Origin: an uncultured bacterium
Lineage (GTDB): Bacteria > Bacillota > Clostridia > Lachnospirales > Lachnospiraceae
Reading direction: 5' to 3'
DNA length: 64,000 nt
Assembly: GCA_947383005.1 (NCBI GenBank)
Contig: CANDBT010000002.1
Span: 62,001-126,000 of the forward strand
Part shown: piece after piece, positions 2,815 through 62,310 of the stretch
Numbering within the stretch: position 1 is the first letter of the stretch
How the letters are laid out: each line of letters starts with the position of its first letter
Notes under the pieces: generated by a model
Told to the model about the DNA's origin: nothing
What the model saw: the letters and a program-made list of their open reading frames with translations, nothing else
The model's database searches: none
Program-made: the position numbers and the translations under genes

Positions 2815-3095
2815 TATGATATTGTGGTCAAAAAATATTTTGACCCCCTTTTGACACCTATGATACCACGGATTGCTCCGCATTTCATGCTCCCGTATCT
2901 CCGCTTCGCTACGGTCGGCGCTGGACAACCGTCCGCCGAACGTTTAGCGCCCTAAAACACCTCAAATTCGCTCATTTTTTCTGCGAAAAATGGCTACTTT
3001 TCGGTGTTTTTGCGGGTCACAAGTTCAAAAATCCTCTTGCAAGCAAGCTTGCATCGGATTTTTTGACCTTTTGACCCTGGTATCATCATCATCTT
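2815..3095. repeat. Inverted palindromic element overlapping the CPBP protease 3' end
   Basis: The left part reads ATGATATTGTGGTCAAAA and the right end, in inverse orientation, GATGATACCAGGGTCAAAAG, so the element is bounded by related inverted sequences. Inside are TTTTTGCGGG-type hairpins and a GCAAGCAAGCTTGC palindrome also found in the family D repeats at 23.3 and 25.8 kb. The last 30 or so codons and the stop of the CPBP protease lie within it. It fills most of the gap between the protease and the glycosyltransferase. Confidence 0.55.
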
Positions 3096-11045: not shown

Positions 11046-11160
11046 AAAAAAGCCGCCTAAGTACCTTCAACTAGCACCCAGGCGGCCAACCTCTTCTACG
11101 TGCTCCCCTGTGGTCATCCCACTGATTCCGCCAGCAGCACGTCTCTTTACACCATAATAA
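11046..11160 (-). ncRNA. ZTP riboswitch (pfl motif) with terminator expression platform
   Basis: On the minus strand the leader reads ACGTGCTGCTGGCGG, then GTGGGATGACCAC (a small hairpin), then GGGGAGCACGT, and finally GGCCGCCTGGGTGC. These are the conserved blocks of the pfl RNA, with ACGTGCT and AGCACGT complementary and the 3' CCGCCUGGG block. That last block is also the 5' arm of a terminator, GCCGCCT.../AGGCGGC (11052-11058 with 11080-11086), followed by six U. Ligand binding should sequester it and allow transcription into the IMP cyclohydrolase gene, 78 bp downstream. The family senses ZMP/ZTP, which accumulates when formyl-THF is short. The match was made by eye. Confidence 0.92.
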
Positions 11161-29064: not shown

Positions 29065-29235
29065 CCATAAAAACATCCATCCAAACCCTGTTTTTGATTG
29101 GGGTAAAAAGCGTGCTTTTTGCGCCGCAACTCCAATTATAGGAAGCTGATTTTGTTTCCTGTACAAGAAAATAGCCGAAATCATAAAAACCGCCAATGCC
29201 AGAAACAAGACAATCTTACCTCTGTTATGCTTCAT
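29059..29235 (-). CDS. Small single-span membrane protein, 58 residues (candidate)
   Basis: An ORF starting MKHNRGKIVLFLALAVFMIS with a single membrane helix and ending in a basic, tryptophan-containing tail. The ATG at 29235 has AGGGGAAAG at suitable spacing, better than expected for noise. Residues 29-44 (NQLPIIGVAAQKARFL) are encoded by a degraded copy of the 95-bp family A repeat, and the stop lies in the MITE-like element, so the C-terminal half may be secondary. No homologue is recognised. It is on the strand of the adhesin and lipoprotein genes. Confidence 0.4.
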   Translation of the reverse strand: MKHNRGKIVLFLALAVFMISAIFLYRKQNQLPIIGVAAQKARFLPQSKTGFGWMFLWR

Positions 29236-29257: not shown

Positions 29258-29346
29258 AGTATGCTTCTTGACACACACCAGCGCCGGAGCGCGGTTGCGG
29301 CAGCAACCATCTTCCTTGTGCGCATAGGGCGCGCTTTCCTATGATA
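29258..29346. repeat. Family C palindromic repeat, shorter copy
   Basis: Contains GCGCCGGAGCGC, GTTGCGGCAGCAAC and TTTCCTATGATA in the same order as the copy at 22307-22445. Confidence 0.65.
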
Positions 29347-29439: not shown

Positions 29440-32400
29440 TCAACTGTTTTGCGATTTCTTCCGTTTTCTTCCGCTGATCCCCAGGCCCAGCAAACCGCCT
29501 GCACAAAGCAGAATCAGCGCATACCACAATGCCGAAATATCTCCCGTGGCCGGAATAGCCGCTAATGGAACCTCTTCTTCCGGAATGCTTGCCAACGGAA
29601 CCTCATCGTCTGCAATGGACGTTACCGGATCTCCCTCATTGGGGAAATTCGCCAACGGAACGATACCGTCATTAATGGTCGTCGATGTTGTCGGACGAGA
29701 ACCGCCTCCGCCCGACGGCCTGCCGCCTGACGGTCTGCCTGGCGTGGTAGGTGTCTCGGGAGTAGTCGGATTTTCTGGTTTCTCCGGCTCTTCCGGCTTC
29801 TCCGGTTCTTCCGGTTTTTCATCATTGTAGGTGTACTCATGCTTCCAGCTATCCTGCCAATCCCGCTCGGACTTCACCGTTGCCGTCGCCGTGACAACAA
29901 TCTCTTTGTCCGCTTTCTCTCTGGTAACTGTCTGGTATACAATATCATCATGCGTATCTTCCCGGGTTGCTTCGCCCTTGGCTTCAGTCTTTACCAATTC
30001 AGCAGAAGGTTCCCTGACATTGAAGGTCAAATCTACGCTGAGGTCTACCTGACGTGTTGTTATGTCCGCACTGATAAAGGTCTGGGACAATGTGTGATCT
30101 TTACCGTTTGCACCTTCGGCAGTAATCAGATATGCGCTTTTATCTACCGTTTGAATACCGCTCAGATTTAAAGTAATCCTCACACCCTCATCTAATTCCA
30201 GGTTTTCAATCGTATAAACTCCATTATTGCCCACAATTTTCCCATGGTTGGTCTTGCTGTCGTCACCGGCCAGCCGCCTGGTTGCAATTACTTCACCTGT
30301 GGAGGCATTCAGTACCCGTACAACCAAATCGTCATTGATTTGGCTGGGTTCCACGCTAAGGACAAAAGATACATCCGTGTTATACTTGTAGGCCGTATTT
30401 TTATCTTGGGAAACATTGCCTGTAACCACCGGTTTCCCGTCTGTTCCTGTCGCCAGGGATTTGACGGTTATGCTGGTTTCGGTAATCGCCCCGGCATTGA
30501 TTTCGGGCGCTGGTTCTTCATTATTGCTTTCAAGACCGCGCAAATAATCATAGAGAGCTTTGGCTACCTTTTCTTCGTCCGCAGTAAAATATCCATTGGT
30601 ATCTTGATTAAGGTTACTGCCATTCAGATTGTATTTACCAAAAGGATCCTTCACATTAATCTTTTCACCGCTGGTCGCATAACTCCATATAGCTGCCTGG
30701 GTTGCCGTCAAAGCCATACCGTCTGTCAGGTTATCCACATCCGTTTTGCTGATATTTTTAATCTTTCCCGACTCGATCGCTTTTTTCAGCAATTCCTTAA
30801 CCGAATTCAGGCTGCCGGCGCCGGTTTCCGTGCCCCAATAGCCATTTAAGGCAATCGTTTCAATATGCTTCGCTATTTCTTTATTTTTTGCGCTATCGCC
30901 GGTAACCCAATAATCGGCATCTTCCATTACATCAAGCTTCCCGTAAGTGGCTCCGCCCTTGGGGCTGACCTCAAAATCAGCGCAATATACATAATAAGCT
31001 TTGCCTTCCGAATCATAAACCTTAAACTGATGCGGCTTCCAAGTGCCGCCCGACGATGGGCTATTTTCACCGTTTACCCGAATCGCGCTTTCTAGACCGT
31101 ATTCGCCAAGATACAGGAATTGTCCGTCATTCGCTTTATGCTCAACATCTGTTTTTCCAGCGTATTTCGAATTTAAACTAACCCATTGGTCTTTTCCGTC
31201 TTGGTCAGTTCCAATCTTCCCCCATAATGTACTACCAACCATCTTTGTCTCAGAAACATAAATAATATCACCGTTTTTCAGCGAACCTGTCTGATTATGA
31301 TTAATACCAGCACCGTCGCGAATATTAAGAGAACTTATTGTTACTGCATAAATCACAGCATCAGCACGGTGATACAAATCCGATCCCGTATCTGTCTTTC
31401 CCACCGCAGGCTCTTTCTCAAGATCAGGAGTAAAATTATTCTCTGTCTCCTTGCCGTGGCTGTCTCCTGGCTTTACCTCCCCCATTGATCCCCATACCGC
31501 ACAATGGGCGCCGTCCGTCACGTCAGTAATTTCGATATACTGCCCGTTCACCGTCGCAGCCTTCGTCACCAATATGGTACTGGTGGTCGTCACGGTCTGA
31601 TTCTCCGTAGTTGTCGTGATAAGCGGAGTAACAACCGTAGTTTTGGTACCCCATACGGATTCCTTGCTGCTGGAAACCTGGACGCCGCTGCTATCCGTCA
31701 CAACCGTTGTCGTCAAATAACCGACAACAACAGGATTGCCTTCCTCATCCACAACAACATTCCCCTGGCCGTCTACGTCATAAAGGTCTTCCACCGTAAC
31801 GGTAGTTTTGTTGCCTGTGGTTTCATCCACATGTTCGCTTGCTTCCGGTTTGGCGGGAAGATTGATTTCCACACTGGTTTTTACCTGTTCTTCATCCCTC
31901 ACCGCTTCCGGATTTTCCGGAGTGCTTCCTGTCACCTCTGTCTGAGGATCTCCTACGTTAGTTGTCTGCTTTGTCGTCTCGATAACTTTCGTTTTATATC
32001 CGATGACATTGCCGGCCGTATCCTTGATTTCGATGACAATCGTTTTGGTCTCTTTACCGCTTTCTTCGTCTATAACCGTCGTCTGATAACCGGTTTCTCC
32101 GTTTTCCGCGTAATCTTGTGCATCCTCCGGCCTTTCCGGCACGGTAAGCCCGTTCTCGCCTAACAATTTCGACGTATCCACGGTAATCGCAACCCAATCC
32201 TGCCCGCCTGGCTTCATCGTGACAGTCACGCCGTCTTCTCCGCTGCCGGTAACGATCGGATTGCCATTTTCGTCGGTTACGACTTTTCCGTCCTCTGTCT
32301 TGACTGTCTGCCAATCATCGACATCCAGCGGTATGTCTTCACGTCCTGTTTCATGTTCATCGACTTTTTTCTCCGGATCATCGGTAAATTCGCCATTATT

Positions 32401-33258
32401 TCCCTCTGTGTCTTTTGTATCGGTTCCCGTTTGAACCGGATCCCCCACCTGATGCTCCTCGCCTTCTTCAATGGTGGTATCCGTCGTGGTTGTGGTCGTG
32501 GTCGTCGTCTCCTCGCCGGTAATGGCGCCGGATTCTTCCACAACCCTGTCCTTGTCATCGGTTACGGTAGTCTCGGTTTTGGTTTCGCTGCCGCTGACTT
32601 CAACTTTTCCTCCGTCCTCGGTAGTACCAGATCCCTCCCAGGTCGTGTTGTTTTCCTTGCTGACAGAGCCATCCCCATTATTGTTTTCTGTTTCCGTTGT
32701 GGTCTGCGAACCGGAAACTGCTGTGCCGTCTTCCGTTGTACCACTCCACTCGCTTGTGGTAGTATTGGCATTGTCCTTGCCGGCATCATCGCCGCCTTCC
32801 GCGTCATCGCCGCTGCCGTCACTATCGGTACTGCCGGTACTATCGGTACTGCCGGTACTATCGCTGTCATTGTTCCCCGTGTCTTTGTTTTCACTTCCTG
32901 TGCCGCCGTTTTCGCTTCCGCTCCCTGCGTCACCGTTTTCACTTCCGCTTCCTGCGTCGCCGTTTTCGCTTCCGCTCCCTGCGCCACCGTTTTCACTTCC
33001 GCTTCCTGCGTCGCCGCTCTCGCTTCCGCTTCCTGCGCCACCACTCTCGCTTTTGTTCCCTGTGTCGCCGCTCTCGCTTCCGCTTCCCGCGTCACCGCTC
33101 TCGCTTTTGCTTCCTGCATCGCTGCTTCCGACTTCCTTGTCCTCAGCCGCATAAGCCGCGCTTGTAAATGCAGCATTCTGCAGCATACTCAAGCACATTA
33201 CCAAAACGAGAAACAAAGCAAAACCTCGCCTACCACGTTTTTTCCCATATTTCTTCAT
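29440..33258 (-). CDS. Cys-Gln thioester-forming surface adhesin with sortase signal
   Basis: A 1272-residue cell-wall protein. A signal peptide (about 1-38, ending AAYAAE) precedes a low-complexity Gly/Ser/Glu repeat region (about 40-165) and a Thr/Glu-rich stalk of beta-type repeats to about 620. A bacterial SH3-like domain lies near 630-700 (VYAVTISSLNIRDGAG). A thioester domain follows, with Cys759 in YYVYCADFE and Gln854 in ALTATQAAIWS, the C...TQxA pair that forms an internal thioester in pilus and surface adhesins. The C-terminus has a PEKPEEPEK stalk, the sorting signal IPATGD (near 1234), a hydrophobic segment and KRKKSQ. The start at 33258 has AAGGAAGG. The frame stays open upstream through a riboswitch, which is not coding. 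Expression should follow c-di-GMP. Confidence 0.9.
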   Translation of the reverse strand: MKKYGKKRGRRGFALFLVLVMCLSMLQNAAFTSAAYAAEDKEVGSSDAGSKSESGDAGSGSESGDTGNKSESGGAGSGSESGDAGSGSENGGAGSGSENGDAGSGSENGDAGSGSENGGTGSENKDTGNNDSDSTGSTDSTGSTDSDGSGDDAEGGDDAGKDNANTTTSEWSGTTEDGTAVSGSQTTTETENNNGDGSVSKENNTTWEGSGTTEDGGKVEVSGSETKTETTVTDDKDRVVEESGAITGEETTTTTTTTTDTTIEEGEEHQVGDPVQTGTDTKDTEGNNGEFTDDPEKKVDEHETGREDIPLDVDDWQTVKTEDGKVVTDENGNPIVTGSGEDGVTVTMKPGGQDWVAITVDTSKLLGENGLTVPERPEDAQDYAENGETGYQTTVIDEESGKETKTIVIEIKDTAGNVIGYKTKVIETTKQTTNVGDPQTEVTGSTPENPEAVRDEEQVKTSVEINLPAKPEASEHVDETTGNKTTVTVEDLYDVDGQGNVVVDEEGNPVVVGYLTTTVVTDSSGVQVSSSKESVWGTKTTVVTPLITTTTENQTVTTTSTILVTKAATVNGQYIEITDVTDGAHCAVWGSMGEVKPGDSHGKETENNFTPDLEKEPAVGKTDTGSDLYHRADAVIYAVTISSLNIRDGAGINHNQTGSLKNGDIIYVSETKMVGSTLWGKIGTDQDGKDQWVSLNSKYAGKTDVEHKANDGQFLYLGEYGLESAIRVNGENSPSSGGTWKPHQFKVYDSEGKAYYVYCADFEVSPKGGATYGKLDVMEDADYWVTGDSAKNKEIAKHIETIALNGYWGTETGAGSLNSVKELLKKAIESGKIKNISKTDVDNLTDGMALTATQAAIWSYATSGEKINVKDPFGKYNLNGSNLNQDTNGYFTADEEKVAKALYDYLRGLESNNEEPAPEINAGAITETSITVKSLATGTDGKPVVTGNVSQDKNTAYKYNTDVSFVLSVEPSQINDDLVVRVLNASTGEVIATRRLAGDDSKTNHGKIVGNNGVYTIENLELDEGVRITLNLSGIQTVDKSAYLITAEGANGKDHTLSQTFISADITTRQVDLSVDLTFNVREPSAELVKTEAKGEATREDTHDDIVYQTVTREKADKEIVVTATATVKSERDWQDSWKHEYTYNDEKPEEPEKPEEPEKPENPTTPETPTTPGRPSGGRPSGGGGSRPTTSTTINDGIVPLANFPNEGDPVTSIADDEVPLASIPEEEVPLAAIPATGDISALWYALILLCAGGLLGLGISGRKRKKSQNS
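32886..33115 (-). repeat. Tandem 24-bp coding repeats in the adhesin N-terminus
   Basis: About nine copies of a 24-bp unit encode eight residues of the DAGSGSEN type (variants GAGSGSES, DTGNKSES). They form the flexible N-terminal region. Such repeats vary in number by slippage. Confidence 0.85.
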
Positions 33259-33275
33259 GTTTTTTCCTTCCTTTG
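33256..33275 (-). promoter_or_regulatory. Ribosome binding site fixing the adhesin start
   Basis: AAAGGAAGG lies upstream of the ATG at 33258 and is followed by a good signal peptide. The longer reading frame runs back through the riboswitch and is not the start. Confidence 0.75.
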
Positions 33276-33296
33276 CCAAAGAATCGGATGCAAAGT

Positions 33297-33378
33297 ATCC
33301 GGCGGCTGGGCTGGCATAGCGCCGAAGCACCTTAGCCCCCATAGCTTTGCGTCCCGCCGTTTTCGACGGTTTGCCAAA
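33297..33378 (-). ncRNA. Cyclic di-GMP-I riboswitch (GEMM-I)
   Basis: The minus strand carries the conserved order GGCAAACC, a stem capped by a GAAA tetraloop (CCGTCGAAAACGG), GGGACGCAAAGC, the tetraloop-receptor-like CTATGG...GCTAAGG, a second hairpin GTGCTTCGGCGC and the closing TATGCCAGCC...GCCG. It ends about 38 nt before the adhesin ATG, with no separate gene between, so it controls the adhesin. Whether ligand switches it on or off needs the expression platform; no strong terminator lies between aptamer and start, so translation control is likely. Confidence 0.93.
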
Positions 33379-33388
33379 AAGATCCAAT

Positions 33389-33468
33389 CGAGTAGGGAAG
33401 AACCATCTTCCCCTACTCGCCGCGCGGCCCGCGCGCCGCTTTAGCGGCATATTCCTCTGTGCGGGCCT
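33389..33468. repeat. Family B palindromic repeat
   Basis: CGAGTAGGGAAGAACCATCTTCCCCTACTCG hairpin, followed by CGCGCGGCCCGCGCG, GCCGCTTTAGCGGC and a CTCTGTGCGGGCCTG end. Copies: 45823-45903 and 46038-46116, with parts at 43437-43475 and 7081-7130. Confidence 0.75.
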
Positions 33469-33519
33469 GAATATAAAAATATAAGGAGCCGTAAAACGGC
33501 TCCTTATATTTTTATATTC
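33469..33519 (-). terminator. Terminator between the 189-aa gene and the adhesin unit
   Basis: A perfect 23-bp inverted repeat (33469-33491 with 33497-33519), loop of five, with core GGAGCCG/CGGCTCC and a T-rich 3' side (TTATATTTTTATATT) on the minus strand. It separates the upstream gene from the riboswitch-controlled adhesin. Confidence 0.85.
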
Positions 33520-33545
33520 AACACAACAGCAGTCACTTTTCAGCA

Positions 33546-34115
33546 TTAGGTAAATGATGTATGGCGGCGTCGGTAAGCATCATTATCTTTTTGACGCAGC
33601 TCACTCTCCACCTGCAGCAGCTCTTTTTCCAGGCTTTTGATTTTCTTATCGTCAGTTTCCGCATTGAGCTGCTGTTTCAGTTCCTTTTGCCTTTTTTTCA
33701 GTTTTTCAATCTCGCGGTCTACGCGATCCGTGTTAGCGGTACACCTCTCTGACTTTTCAGACTTCTCCGATTTTTCCTGCTTTTCAGGTTTTCCGTCAGC
33801 CGTCTTCTTTTCCGATCTGTCTATTCCTCCGTCCTCTTTTGCGCTGTCCGGCTGTTCGGACGCTTTCACGGGGCTTTCCTCCGCCTGGTCCGGTTCGTCA
33901 AAATAAATTCGGGGGCTTCCCTCCTCATCCTTACCCAGCCGGTAAAGGCCGGACGATTCCTTTTTTTCCTCCGGGATATATTCATCCATTACCGGTTTTT
34001 TCAGACGCTTCTCATCCTTATCTTCGGGCTGCTGGATTTTAGCCTCTTCCTTCGCTCTGGCAACAGATAATGGCGGGCGAACCGCAACAGAAGACATACC
34101 AGAAATCGCTTCCAT
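33546..34115 (-). CDS. Charged coiled-coil protein, unknown function
   Basis: A 189-residue hydrophilic protein starting MEAISGMSSVAVRPPLSVARAKEEAK, with AGGAGG seven bases before the ATG at 34115. The middle is very rich in Glu, Lys, Ser and Asp and probably disordered. The C-terminal 60 residues (REIEKLKKRQKELKQQLNAE...) form a heptad coiled coil. It has no signal peptide or membrane segment. The protein at 59204-59677 has a similar character, opens in the same way (SG...S...SVA.A) and also lies downstream of a GHKL kinase gene. No family is recognised. Confidence 0.75.
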   Translation of the reverse strand: MEAISGMSSVAVRPPLSVARAKEEAKIQQPEDKDEKRLKKPVMDEYIPEEKKESSGLYRLGKDEEGSPRIYFDEPDQAEESPVKASEQPDSAKEDGGIDRSEKKTADGKPEKQEKSEKSEKSERCTANTDRVDREIEKLKKRQKELKQQLNAETDDKKIKSLEKELLQVESELRQKDNDAYRRRHTSFT

Positions 34116-34246
34116 GTCTGTTCCTCCTCTCATAGCAGTTTTTCTTTTCACGATGCCGTTAAAAACATCGCGTCTTGTCTGCTTACTTTCATTTTACTTC
34201 CATTCCACCGTATTTCAAGGCTTTCGCATTGAGATGTCATCTGAAC

Positions 34247-34318
34247 GTAATGAATGGTTATCGTTTGCCCGATGCTTTTTGTCCGTTGAAAACGGGCAAG
34301 AAGATGCCCCTCCCGTGA
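34247..34318. repeat. Family D-related palindrome
   Basis: TTTTTGTCCGTTGAAAACGGGCAAGAAGATGCCCCTCCCGTGAA repeats words of the family D elements. It directly precedes the family A tandem array. Confidence 0.5.
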
Positions 34319-34331
34319 AAAGTAATATAAC

Positions 34332-34616
34332 TTATCGGAAATTGCGAAGTAATTTCCGATAAAAGGCGCGTTCTTAGCGCCGTAAATCCGATTATAGGAA
34401 GCTGATTTTGCTTCCTATAATATAACTTATCAGAATTTGCGAAGCAAATTTTGATAAAAGGCGCATCTTTTGCGCCGTAAATCCGATTATAGGAAGCTGA
34501 TTTTGCTTCCTATAATATAACTTATCAGAATTTGCGAAGCAAATTTTGATAAAAGGCGCATCTTTTGCGCCGTAAATCCGATTATAGGAAGCTGATTTTG
34601 CTTCCTATAATATAAA
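34332..34616. repeat. Family A: three tandem 95-bp units of three palindromes
   Basis: Units start at 34332, 34427 and 34522, an exact 95-bp period. Each has hairpin P1 (TTATC-n-GATAA), P2 (GGCGC...GCGCC) and P3 (TTATAGGAAGC...GCTTCCTATAA), joined by GTAAATCCGA. Units 2 and 3 are identical by eye; unit 1 differs by paired changes in P1. It fills the gap between a GHKL kinase stop and the coiled-coil gene. Confidence 0.92.
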
Positions 34617-34660
34617 AGGTTACAATCTGCCCTGTGGGCGGTAATAAGGAATAATATTGG

Positions 34661-35956
34661 TCAGGAATGTCCGGAGGTACTGCCGGAGACATCAAGCAGC
34701 ACATGTAAGAAAAAACATTCGTCCGTTTTTTCCGTCAACATTGCACCATGGTATTTTTCCGCCACGGATTTGATATTGGAAAGACCGGTTCCCATCGGGG
34801 GCAGAGGCATAGAAGAACAAGTATTTTCAAATGAAAACATATAAAAATCGCCTTGCTGTTCCCCGCTGACACGGATAAACCTCTCCCCTTCAGCCGACTG
34901 GCAGGCATAAACGGCATTGTCGAGGGCATTGGCAAATATCACACACAAATCAAAATCATCGGCGCCACAGGTTTCTGGCAAAACAAGGGATACTTCTGTC
35001 AGGATATCTTTCGCCTTCGCCAGCCTCAATTTTTCGCCCAGCAAGATATCCACTATGGGATTACCTGTCTGATCGGGAAACGATAACGAATCCGAAACGG
35101 TTTCCAGCTTTCCCAGCCAAACCTTGCTTTCCTCCCATTTTTCCTGCTTCAGCAAACCGGCCAGTACGGACAAGTGATTTTTGATATCATGACGGAAAGC
35201 TTTAGTCTGTTCATAGCGCATTTGCGCTTCGGAAATATATATTTTTTGCGCCTGGGCTGCCTGAGTCAGTGAAGCCAGCGCCGCCTGAGTCCGGAATCCT
35301 TGGCAAACGCGCCGCCAGGCGTATAAAGTACAAAACAGCGTCCCCATCCCCAAAACCTGCAAAAACAGTAATGCCATGTGTTTTCCCATTGCAGCCAATG
35401 AAAACTGCATTGGCAGAATATGATAAGAGGTACGCAAAATATAAATCTCCGCAGCAAAGAAAAATACTCCCGGCAGCAGCAAAAAACCAGGATATGGCGT
35501 CAAACTATCCTCTGTCAGAGACAATATTTTCAGCACAAGCGCACAGCAGACGGCACATATGGCAAAAATAGCCAGAGTTGCCAGAACTACCATCAGGTAC
35601 AAAAACGTTTTTCCTACCCAATGCGGAAATATTATCGCCTCCACCGAATTGACCATGCCAAAAGAAAGCTGCACAATATAGACAGCGAGAATCGTGGCCA
35701 CCCAAGATACTAACGGCTGATTCTTCATCAGAAGACGGTTTATCGCATATAAAGCAAGCAATTGCGCACTAATCGCAAAAATATCGCCAAAAACCACGCC
35801 GTCAAAAAACCATTCCATTATATACAGCAGGGAAAGATAGAGCACAAAATATATGATTTTCTGCTTTTTCCCTGTCAGGCGCCCAATAAAAACCAGATGT
35901 ATAATGCCTTGCCCCGCAAGACAAAAGCTGTTCAGGCATAAGCTGAAATAATCCAT
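34661..35956 (-). CDS. GHKL-domain sensor histidine kinase (AgrC-like)
   Basis: A 431-residue membrane kinase. The first 215 residues hold about six to seven helices with no large extracellular domain, as in peptide-sensing AgrC/ComD kinases. A short coiled coil leads to the phospho-accepting His256 in FRHDIKNHLSVL, then the GHKL ATPase with ANALDNAVYAC and GTGLSNIKSVAEKYHG. The start ATG lies one base after the stop of a destroyed LytTR response-regulator gene (35958-36066). The intact regulator at 46267-46983 is a candidate partner. No AgrD/AgrB-like peptide genes are seen in this window. Confidence 0.9.
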   Translation of the reverse strand: MDYFSLCLNSFCLAGQGIIHLVFIGRLTGKKQKIIYFVLYLSLLYIMEWFFDGVVFGDIFAISAQLLALYAINRLLMKNQPLVSWVATILAVYIVQLSFGMVNSVEAIIFPHWVGKTFLYLMVVLATLAIFAICAVCCALVLKILSLTEDSLTPYPGFLLLPGVFFFAAEIYILRTSYHILPMQFSLAAMGKHMALLFLQVLGMGTLFCTLYAWRRVCQGFRTQAALASLTQAAQAQKIYISEAQMRYEQTKAFRHDIKNHLSVLAGLLKQEKWEESKVWLGKLETVSDSLSFPDQTGNPIVDILLGEKLRLAKAKDILTEVSLVLPETCGADDFDLCVIFANALDNAVYACQSAEGERFIRVSGEQQGDFYMFSFENTCSSMPLPPMGTGLSNIKSVAEKYHGAMLTEKTDECFFLHVLLDVSGSTSGHS

Positions 35957-36279: not shown

Positions 36280-36384
36280 CGGAAAAAGTGTGCGTTTTGT
36301 ATCATAGGACGCAATTTCCGATAAAAGGCGCATCCTTAGCGCCGTAAATCCGATTACAGGATTCGCGAAGCGGTTCCTGTAATA
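36280..36384. repeat. Family C/A hybrid repeat, single copy
   Basis: GTGTGCGTTTTGTATCATAGGACGCAATTTC is the end of family C; it runs into CGATAAAAGGCGC...GCGCC and TTACAGGATTCGCGAAGCGGTTCCTGTAA, the P2 and P3 of family A. The same fusion occurs at 43518-43621. Confidence 0.75.
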
Positions 36385-43385: not shown

Positions 43386-43436
43386 ATAAACACAAACGGA
43401 GATGTCAGCAAAAGCTGACGGCGCCCGGCGCAGCGA

Positions 43437-43502
43437 GTGGGGGAAGCCTTCCCCTACTCGCTGCGCGTTTCCACTCCAGTCGTTGCTAAACGAGTGCCAC
43501 TG
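43437..43502. repeat. Family B-like fragment and mixed hairpins
   Basis: GCGAGTGGGGGAAGCCTTCCCCTACTCGCTGCGC is a shortened family B hairpin, followed by GAGTGCCACTGGCACTC. It opens the repeat mosaic downstream of the permease. Confidence 0.5.
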
Positions 43503-43517
43503 GCACTCAGCAACCTA

Positions 43518-43807
43518 AGCGGAGCGTTTTTGTTTCATAGGACGCAATTTCTGATAAAAGGCGCATCTTTTGCGCCATAAATCCGATTACAGGGTTCGCG
43601 TAGCGGTTCCTGTAATATAACTTATCAGAATTTGCAAAGCAAATTATGATAAAAGGCGCATCTTTTGCGCCGTAAATCCGATTACAGGGTTCGCGTAGCG
43701 GTTCCTGTAATATAACTTATCAGAATTTGCAAAGCAAATTATGATAAAAGGCGCATCTTTTGCGCCGTAAATCCGATTACAGGGTTCGCGTAGCGGTTCC
43801 TGTAATA
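43518..43807. repeat. Family A tandem array (two full units and a C/A hybrid)
   Basis: Units begin at 43622 and 43717 (95 bp apart); a first, incomplete unit (43543-43621) is fused to a family C end. P3 here is TTACAGGGTTCGCGTAGCGGTTCCTGTAA, a different sequence from the 34.3-kb array but with the same stem. Confidence 0.9.
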
Positions 43808-43858
43808 TAAAGAAGTGGGCCATGCTGCAACTGCCGCACGGCCCACTTCTTTAATTTT
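43808..43858. terminator. Strong bidirectional terminator between converging frl units
   Basis: A perfect 14-bp stem TAAAGAAGTGGGCC/GGCCCACTTCTTTA (43808-43821 with 43840-43853), with AATTTTTG on the plus side. It stops the permease transcript and lies 7 bp from the frlB stop. Confidence 0.9.
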
Positions 43859-45784: not shown

Positions 45785-45822
45785 GATGCAAAAGAAAAAA
45801 CCACACAGATATCATGGGCAAT

Positions 45823-45903
45823 CGAGTAGGGAAGAGTCATCTTCCCCTACTCGCCGCGCGGCCTGCACGCCGCTTTAGCGGCATATTCCTCTGTGTGGGC
45901 CTG
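45823..45903. repeat. Family B palindromic repeat
   Basis: Full copy of the family B unit, with GCCTGCACGC instead of GCCCGCGCGC and GTGTGGGC at the end, both on pairing positions. Confidence 0.75.
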
Positions 45904-45913
45904 TGCAAGAGCA

Positions 45914-46035
45914 AAGAGTCCGGCAGGCCGGACTCTCGCGCCGGAGCGCGGTTGCGACAGCAACTATCTTCCTTGTGCGCGTAGTGCGCATTCCCGCGGA
46001 GCGTTTTGTATCATAGGACGCAATTTCCTATGATA
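45914..46035. repeat. Family C palindromic repeat, full copy
   Basis: Same order as 22307-22445, but the first hairpin is AGAGTCCGGCAGGCCGGACTCT instead of GTGTGCGTCTTGACGCACAC: a whole hairpin exchanged while its neighbours stay the same. Confidence 0.75.
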
Positions 46036-46037
46036 AT

Positions 46038-46116
46038 CGAGTAGGGAAGAGCCATCTTCCCTACTCCCCGCGCGGCCCGCGTGCTGCGTCAGCAGCAAAC
46101 TTCCATACGCGGGCCT
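46038..46116. repeat. Family B palindromic repeat
   Basis: Another family B copy directly after family C, with GCTGCGTCAGCAGC in place of GCCGCTTTAGCGGC. The three repeats B-C-B fill about 300 bp of the gap between the GntR and LytTR genes. Confidence 0.75.
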
Positions 46117-46983: not shown

Positions 46984-47006
46984 TTTCACCACCACTATAA
47001 TATAAC

Positions 47007-47057
47007 TTATCAGAATTTGCGAAGCAAATTATGATAAAAGGCGCGTCTTTTGCGCCG
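47007..47057. repeat. Family A fragment (P1 and P2 only)
   Basis: TTATCAGAATTTGCGAAGCAAATTATGATAA then GGCGCGTCTTTTGCGCC. P3 is missing. It lies in the short gap between the LytTR regulator and the gene upstream. Confidence 0.8.
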
Positions 47058-47064
47058 CATCTTT

Positions 47065-62009: not shown

Positions 62010-62079
62010 AATTCTACCTTCTCTCTTTATGGGAAAACGATTATCCCTACACTCCGGCCTCCAAAGCCGCTTCAATCCC

Positions 62080-62310
62080 TGTTACAGAAATCGCTTTGCA
62101 ATTTCCGATAAGTTATATTACAGGAACCGCTACGCGAACCCTGTAATCGGATTTACGGCGCAAAGAACGCGCCTTTTATCGGAAATCGCTTTGCAATTTC
62201 CGATAAGTTATATTACAGGAACCGCTACGCGAACCCTGTAATCGGATTTACGGCGCAAAGAACGCGCCTTTTATCGGAAATCGCTTTGCAATTTCCGATA
62301 AGTTATATTA
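62080..62310. repeat. Family A tandem array, inverse orientation
   Basis: P1 ends recur at 62106, 62201 and 62296, exactly 95 bp apart. The order is reversed relative to the other arrays, so transcription of the LytTR operon reads the opposite strand. P1 is TATCGGAAATCGCTTTGCAATTTCCGATA and P3 is TTACAGGAACCGCTACGCGAACCCTGTAA. P3 and P2 are repeated without differences by eye. The first unit is incomplete. Confidence 0.9.

Follow-up and report, generated by a model that had tools for sequence, protein, structure and literature searches.

Lachnospiraceae are common gut bacteria, and a 64,000-nucleotide stretch of one of their genomes (the window, in what follows) holds, at 34.3 kb, three abutting copies of a 95-bp unit, each composed of three consecutive hairpins. 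The locus raises the question of what such a unit is, and of whether its hairpins serve the neighbouring genes or the spread of the unit itself.

Anatomy of the repeat unit

The initial annotation had placed exact-tandem 95-bp units, built from the palindromes P1, P2 and P3, at 34.3, 43.6 and 62.1 kb and part copies at 29.1, 36.3 and 47.0 kb, and both the arrays and the part copies were confirmed. Tandem Repeats Finder returned a period of 95 in the window at 34323-34615 (3.1 copies), 43544-43810 (2.8) and 62087-62310 (2.4). The copies are as follows.

34324-34613, plus strand: the 34.3 kb array, three units
34324-34423, plus strand: unit 1 of the 34.3 kb array, from the 5' pentamer AATAT through the 3' AATAT
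34332-34362, plus strand: hairpin P1 of unit 1, TTATCGGAAATT / AATTTCCGATAA
34365-34381, plus strand: hairpin P2 of unit 1, GGCGC / GCGCC
34391-34421, plus strand: hairpin P3 of unit 1, ATTATAGGAAGC / GCTTCCTATAAT
34419-34518, plus strand: unit 2 of the 34.3 kb array, identical to unit 3
34514-34613, plus strand: unit 3 of the 34.3 kb array
43542-43808, plus strand: the 43.6 kb array, two full units and most of a third
43542-43618, plus strand: 5'-truncated unit (model positions 24-101), starting in a chimeric hairpin
43614-43713, plus strand: full unit with P3 of the GGGTTCGC type
43709-43808, plus strand: second full unit, resembling that at 43614-43713
62077-62309, minus strand: the 62.1 kb array, two full units and part of a third
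62210-62309, minus strand: full unit
62115-62214, minus strand: second full unit, resembling that at 62210-62309
62077-62120, minus strand: 3'-truncated unit (model positions 1-44)
29098-29163, plus strand: degraded, 5'-truncated part copy (positions 31-97, P2 and P3)
36308-36384, plus strand: 5'-truncated part copy (positions 23-100), starting in a chimeric hairpin
46999-47059, plus strand: 3'-truncated part copy (positions 1-62, P1 and P2)

The unit is laid out as AAC-P1-AA-P2-GTAAATCCG-P3 with the 3' end TAATAT, and adjoining units have the pentamer AATAT in common. An alignment of 61 distinct units from several species of the genus gave the consensus AATAT AACTTATC(P1)GATAA AA GGCGC(P2)GCGCC GTAAATC(C)GA TTAYAGG(P3)CCTRTAATAT. 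The part copies at 29.1 and 36.3 kb are without the 5' part and extend near the 3' end, and the copy at 47.0 kb is the 5' part only. The pattern of P2 plus linker matched eight times in the window against none in 100 shuffles. The unit at 34324 folds into three hairpins with a z of -7.9 on the plus strand; when four units were folded on both strands, every one formed three hairpins (z between about -5 and -10), the plus strand being the more stable in all four.

A CRISPR array had been set aside on the grounds of fixed length and missing spacers, and that exclusion stands: there are no unique spacers, and the units abut and overlap by 5 bp. The fixed length itself holds inside the window arrays, where the step is exactly 95, and fails genome-wide, where 19 of 45 array steps in the sampled genome are 95 and the others are 94 (4), 96 (3), 97 and further values, partly due to truncated units. 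The unit is mostly 96-100 bp in other species.

The chimeric hairpin of the copies at 36.3 and ~43.5-43.6 kb joins a P1 half to a half from another palindrome family. This partner, GTATCATAGGACGCAATTTCCTATGATA, lies in the window at ~29270-29340 as well as in its fusions with P1 at 36.3 and 43.5 kb; other modular palindromes occur at 43430-43470 (CGAGTAGGGAAGAG...) and 45800-46090 (CGCCGGAGCGCGGTTGCG...). Separately, Rfam places a c-di-GMP-I riboswitch at 33298-33385 (minus strand), within the 5' portion of a long, repetitive ORF (29440-33546, minus strand) that resembles a cell-wall surface protein and whose translation probably begins downstream of the riboswitch. The window also has Rfam matches to Clostridiales-1 RNA (2861-3085, minus strand) and, only just at threshold, to a ZMP/ZTP riboswitch (11069-11148, minus strand).

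A dispersed family in Lachnospiraceae and neighbouring Clostridia

The covariance-model search of the genome and its relatives that the initial annotation had proposed revealed a dispersed family, and not a repeat confined to these few sites. The model, built from the 61-unit set, gave at least 123 matches at E ≤ 0.001 in the source genome (4.99 Mb), at least one of them being the minus-strand shadow of a palindrome. Unit matches occur in at least 8 of 24 genomes of the genus (at least 123, 40, 6, 2, 1, 1, 1 and 1), with one of the single matches weak (E 2.9e-4). At most 150 candidates were scored per genome in this search, so the genus counts are lower bounds and absences carry the same limit. 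BLAST of one unit against 61 genomes matched nine, the two outside the genus through chance-like matches of 25 and 37 bases.

In 84,980 species genomes, a pattern search returned 63 stretches in 28 assemblies, at least three of which (BH.7_2, U_126911 and C.6_2) look like genus members already counted. A sequence profile confirmed units in 27 of the 28 (BH.7_2 via the genus genome G019); Ruminiclostridium cellobioparum has no unit by the profile and none by whole-genome model search. Twelve of the 28 assemblies were searched whole with the model and 11 matched (45, 17, 7, 24, 14, 17, 1, 15, 17, 60 and 17); two of these are complete chromosomes, from Anaerocolumna sedimenticola (45 unit matches, including a six-unit array) and Anaerocolumna sp. 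MB42-C2 (17). Fourteen of the 28 assemblies carry Lachnospiraceae in their title, and Anaerocolumna, with two assemblies, belongs to the same family.

No unit match was found in viral contigs (exact pattern), phage records or plasmid records. Rfam has nothing over the arrays at the gathering score, and a permissive limit gives only sub-threshold matches in 34200-34700. The initial annotation could not name the element; likewise, no Rfam family fits it, and the papers searched, mostly outside subscription journals, contain no description.

Arrangement, module exchange and genomic setting

Arrangement was assessed in 513,680 bases, comprising the window and 60 stretches surrounding matches, where 135 units form 90 arrays (55 single, 27 double, 7 triple and 1 of five). 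These are strictly head to tail, with mixed orientation in 0 of 90. Fifteen of the 272 contig ends of the source genome lie in a unit or within ~60 bp of one; the unit thus breaks genome assemblies, and long arrays have probably been shortened by assembly. Full units that are neighbours have a mean identity of 88.6% against 78.9% between arrays, and identity of at least 98% is seen in 9 of 24 neighbour pairs against 14 of 3974 other pairs, some of which may be one array split over two contigs. One unit does recur unchanged between differing flanks at two loci, internal to contigs C38 and C78.

The modular character of this palindromic element was borne out, and its modules are exchanged. With two alleles each for P1, P2 and P3, all eight combinations are seen among 90 full units (70 classifiable), which argues for exchange of the hairpins with less than full freedom: P1 and P2 are independent (p 1.0), and association is weak for P1-P3 (p 0.035) and P2-P3 (p 0.032).

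As first described, the units lie in both directions (plus at 34.3 and 43.6 kb, minus at 62.1 kb) and between genes, only one of 90 arrays overlapping an ORF from our home-made caller by more than 40 bp. Among the 63 arrays with both neighbours called, 31 are antisense to codirectional genes, 18 sense, 7 convergent and 7 divergent. Arrays fall on the G-rich strand, a proxy for replication, in 44 of 87 cases and on the local majority gene strand in 42 of 90, near-even counts which indicate that direction is set clearly by neither replication nor transcription. At four loci of G019 (L056, L065, L067 and L068), another repeat (AAGTGCCGACGTGAAAAATGTCCTCTGCGGATAT...) directly adjoins several units. 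Where the unit measures 96 bp in A. sedimenticola (L282, 1304-1729, minus strand), its minus strand reads as an open repeated frame of ~32 residues, probably arising by chance from the period and composition.

Copies are of sufficient age to be shared between species; they are decaying, and in one case have been altered on both sides of a stem. Next to one gene end (rubrerythrin-like by reading), the unit is intact in G006 and truncated at the P1 tip in its G019 orthologue; another is intact in G021 and truncated within P2 in its G022 orthologue. Two Anaerocolumna species retain a two-unit array with a paired change in P3 (GGAAC/GTTCC against GGAAT/ATTCC), and this retention could reflect a local function. 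Across all species, 19 of 27 5'-truncated arrays start at model positions 23-35, in the P1 tip or 3' arm, and the breakpoints of the 33 3'-truncated arrays are more widely spread.

These observations bear on the possibility that the unit is a regulatory RNA or terminator module, in which P2 followed by TTTT terminates transcription on the minus strand or the stems protect mRNA ends, the spread being old and incidental. On the minus strand, P2 and its TTTT do score as an intrinsic terminator in all three units of the 34.3 kb array (34365-34571), and this region has four terminator-like sites (one of them P1) against a shuffle mean of 0.6. The intergenic position and the array retained in Anaerocolumna agree with such a role, and the antisense lean of the raw counts, 31 to 18, is in the direction expected. 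However, the lean is small (31, 18, 7 and 7 of 63) and is gone when arrays are scored on the local majority strand, the tail is four T only, one partner is truncated in two of three orthologous pairs, and the excess of G-U pairs described below falls on the opposite strand. We regard a primary role of this kind as unlikely.

Covariation and strand asymmetry

The initial annotation had noted that P1 and P3 differ between sites while pairing is retained, and had concluded that structure matters. The covariation is strong. In the 61 units, 97.7% of 1706 cells pair and 12 of 28 pairs show changes on both sides; the covariation score is 0.260 against 0.123 when shuffled, none of 500 shuffles is as high, and sliding the partners destroys the signal, with the number of further pair types unexceptional (46 of 500 shuffles as high). 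A wider set (97 matches drawn from 88 loci, 78 of the matches distinct, with four loci common to the first set and most other genus loci omitted) gave 95.2% pairing in a structure-fitted alignment, changes on both sides in 23 of 28 pairs, and a score of 0.338 against 0.134, again with none of 500 shuffles as high.

Covariation alone is insufficient to demonstrate selection on structure, because template switching that perfects palindromes, a known mutational process, also yields paired changes. The better argument comes from the counts of G-U against A-C. Cells with G-U outnumber those with A-C by 55 to 9 in the 61 units and 81 to 17 in the wider set (uncorrected for shared descent), and by 33 to 8 and 59 to 17 once the richest column is removed; pairs in which G-U exceeds A-C outnumber the reverse by 14 to 3 and 18 to 4 (sign p 0.013 and 0.004). 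In the common P3 allele GGTTC...GGTTCC, whose inner columns lie outside this count, the plus strand opposes GUU with GUU (two G-U pairs round U-U), and on the other strand these bases are left open. A cruciform, or mutation acting equally on both strands, predicts equal G-U and A-C, so the excess suggests that the single plus strand is what has been selected. The conclusion that structure matters is therefore likely, on grounds other than those first given.

The same counts weigh against reading the paired changes as DNA template switching with the structure under no selection. The process is familiar, and the hairpins are deletion endpoints, as the clustered starts of the 5'-truncated arrays attest (19 of 27 at positions 23-35). 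But template switching predicts strand symmetry, when G-U exceeds A-C by about five or six to one, and the common P3 allele stays unperfected. We hold this account to be quite unlikely.

Probable insertion site

Arrays sit 3' of an AATAT-like pentamer, which is single in element-free sites. End counts used 199 distinct arrays over all loci after duplicate removal, 27 at sequence ends being omitted. Of the 95 arrays complete at both ends, 68 have the same pentamer on the left and on the right and 27 have different ones; the target approximates RT-AATAT-RR in 62 arrays that carry no leftover of an adjoining unit. P1 and P3 have similar 5' arms (TTATnGGAA), which makes the element ends weakly inverted.

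Element-free sites were found by matching joined flanks to copies of a ~200-bp host repeat. This second dispersed repeat is MITE-like, with the ends GTTACTGTTCAC / GTGAACAGTAAC, and hosts insertions of the 95-bp unit; its copies in the source genome include L148 2557-2700, L169 6845-7038, L186 3435-3627 and others. The filled copy at locus A reads caattt-AATAT-element-AATAT-gggc, and four element-free paralogues have AAAAT, AACAT, CAAAT or CTAAT at the pentamer. Element-free copies of locus B have GATAT once, with a poorer left-side alignment. Insertion 3' of a short target without duplication is consistent with locus A and less clean at locus B, and locus C is ambiguous.

The right pentamer is part of P3: the 5' arm of P3 pairs with the first three bases of the pentamer, and one such pair has changed on both sides (U-A to C-G). 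Because it pairs inside P3 and because the pentamers differ in 27 of 95 arrays, a plain target duplication fits less well. We read these sequences as probable insertion on the 3' side of an AATAT-like pentamer; the 68 of 95 equal pentamers would also be compatible with a duplicated AATAT target.

Search for a mobilising enzyme

The possible involvement of a REP-associated (RAYT) transposase, raised in the initial annotation, found no support, Y1_Tnp being patchy among carriers. A REP/REPIN-like element moved by a Y1 transposase (RAYT or IS200/IS605) of the same genome would explain hairpins close to both ends, insertion 3' of a short target with no clear duplication, and an element 3' end that resembles the target, and the source genome has three Y1_Tnp matches. 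These, however, comprise two fragments and a single full frame of 146 residues, and the contigs that carry them, C60 and C133, have no unit match. Y1_Tnp has no match in 7 of the 12 other carriers searched, including the two complete Anaerocolumna chromosomes, and is present in 6 of the 11 genus genomes without a unit match; the GTAG tag, inverted pairs and strand bias are also absent. RAYT/Y1 was rejected as a general mobiliser, and we consider this origin very unlikely.

A SINE-like retro-element, its plus strand transcribed and then copied into DNA by a reverse transcriptase acting in trans, would suit the one-strand G-U excess, the absent orientation bias and the RVT_1 matches in 10 of the 12 carriers searched, but is highly improbable given that neither A. 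sedimenticola (complete, with its six-unit array) nor G072 has an RVT_1 match, so that the enzyme was rejected as a shared mobiliser, and that the sole promoter-like site around the 34.3 kb array lies outside it.

A Y2/IS91 transposase was likewise rejected as a shared mobiliser, Y2_Tnp being absent from 5 of the 12 carriers; of the three Y2 matches in A. sedimenticola, one lies ~3 kb away from an array and the other two are not near listed unit matches. G072, a metagenome assembly, has none of Y1_Tnp, RVT_1 and Y2_Tnp. Either the mobiliser is another enzyme, or the carriers without these three no longer move copies.

An autonomous parent was sought among 336 loci as 5' ends without P2 or 3' ends without P1, and none was found. 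Among the matches listed for orphan 5' ends in two genomes, the 13 places inspected held remnants or chance matches only, with no downstream unit 3' end. No telling gene emerged from the 25 largest clusters of proteins encoded within 1.5 kb of arrays, and three short inter-array gaps hold genes of ordinary appearance.

The unit junction CTTCCTATAATATAACTTAT resembles the Bacillus subtilis dif site, but a Xer/dif lead was unsupported: the dif pattern with three mismatches gave 30 matches in eight genomes against 28 for a backward control. In the source genome the counts were 6 and 1, and unit junctions made up four of the 6. When 400 kb of A. sedimenticola was scored for dif, the top site reached 20 of 28 and the reversed control 22, with scores of 18-20 at four unit junctions; GC skew is positive in nearly all pieces of the stretch, which may therefore miss the terminus and make the test weak.

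A proposed non-autonomous repeat recognised as a folded single strand

Taken over the whole family, we think it fairly probable that these units are short, non-coding, non-autonomous mobile repeats of Lachnospiraceae that are recognised as a folded single strand. A trans-acting enzyme would recognise the folded strand, the plus strand judging by the G-U excess, and would join the element 3' of an AATAT-like target. Since the element itself ends in TAATAT, every copy would offer a fresh target, and head-to-tail arrays would result, their length shifting later through slippage or unequal exchange. Copies would then decay via deletion at the hairpins, which would be kept mainly for spreading and not as a service to the neighbouring gene. 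It should be noted that single-strand transposons of the IS200/IS605 type usually show a replication-strand bias, and the presence of only 44 of 87 arrays on the G-rich strand counts against this single-strand model.

A more far-reaching version, which we rate as unlikely, is that the family represents a new class of minimal mobile DNA, in which the enzyme is neither a Y1/Y2 HUH transposase nor a reverse transcriptase, and perhaps a universal host recombinase, and in which the target-recreating 3' end builds the head-to-tail arrays.

Comparison with known repeat systems

The unit works like REP/REPIN and BOX elements, with many copies, hairpins, intergenic positions and species-specific bursts, and it departs from the definition of REP in tag, inverted pairs and RAYT link and from that of BOX in modular order. 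The BOX elements of Streptococcus pneumoniae are interspersed repeats of a Firmicute, built from folding modules, occurring in clusters with other repeats and inserted in them, and in some cases transcribed; they consist of boxA-boxB-boxC, with boxB absent or multiple, and have terminal inverted repeats and target duplications (PMC3049150). The unit is like these elements, so described, in being a Firmicute dispersed repeat of folding modules found among or in other repeats (PMC3049150). It differs from this account of boxB in that the order P1-P2-P3 holds in aligned units and the entire three-hairpin unit repeats, and from that of the BOX termini in its AATAT-like ends with no clear duplication, bearing in mind the weakly inverted ends and the 68 of 95 equal pentamers (PMC3049150).

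REPs are palindromes of 20-40 bp tagged GTAG or CGTC that form head-head or tail-tail dimers, head-tail dimers being absent or rare in most genomes; GTAG REPs are often near RAYT genes, and REPs are reported from other phyla, the main text nowhere using the word Firmicutes (PMC3733652). The unit resembles REP, BIME and REPIN elements in its many hairpin copies, mostly extragenic position and species-specific expansion. It departs from REP/REPIN in the foot of P1, which is AACTTAT in the 61-unit alignment with no GTAG/CGTC tag, in having three hairpins arranged exclusively head to tail (inverted pairs in 0 of 90 arrays), and in having no RAYT gene beside it, Y1_Tnp matches being only on unit-free contigs.

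MITEs derived from IS200/IS605 have end hairpins and insert 3' of a short target. The unit shares the end hairpins and probably the short target on the 5' side, but no autonomous parent was found by the searches above, Y1 is missing in 7 of 12 carriers, and the GC-rich central P2 is conserved. In tandem intergenic repeats such as MIRU/VNTR the copy number of the unit depends on the locus, as it does here, but the present unit has three covarying stems and is dispersed to AATAT-like sites.

The unit family occurs in at least 27 assemblies of Lachnospiraceae or neighbouring Clostridia besides the source genome. As a dispersed, head-to-tail repeat with covariation, it makes the movement of small palindromic repeats testable outside the REP/RAYT system.
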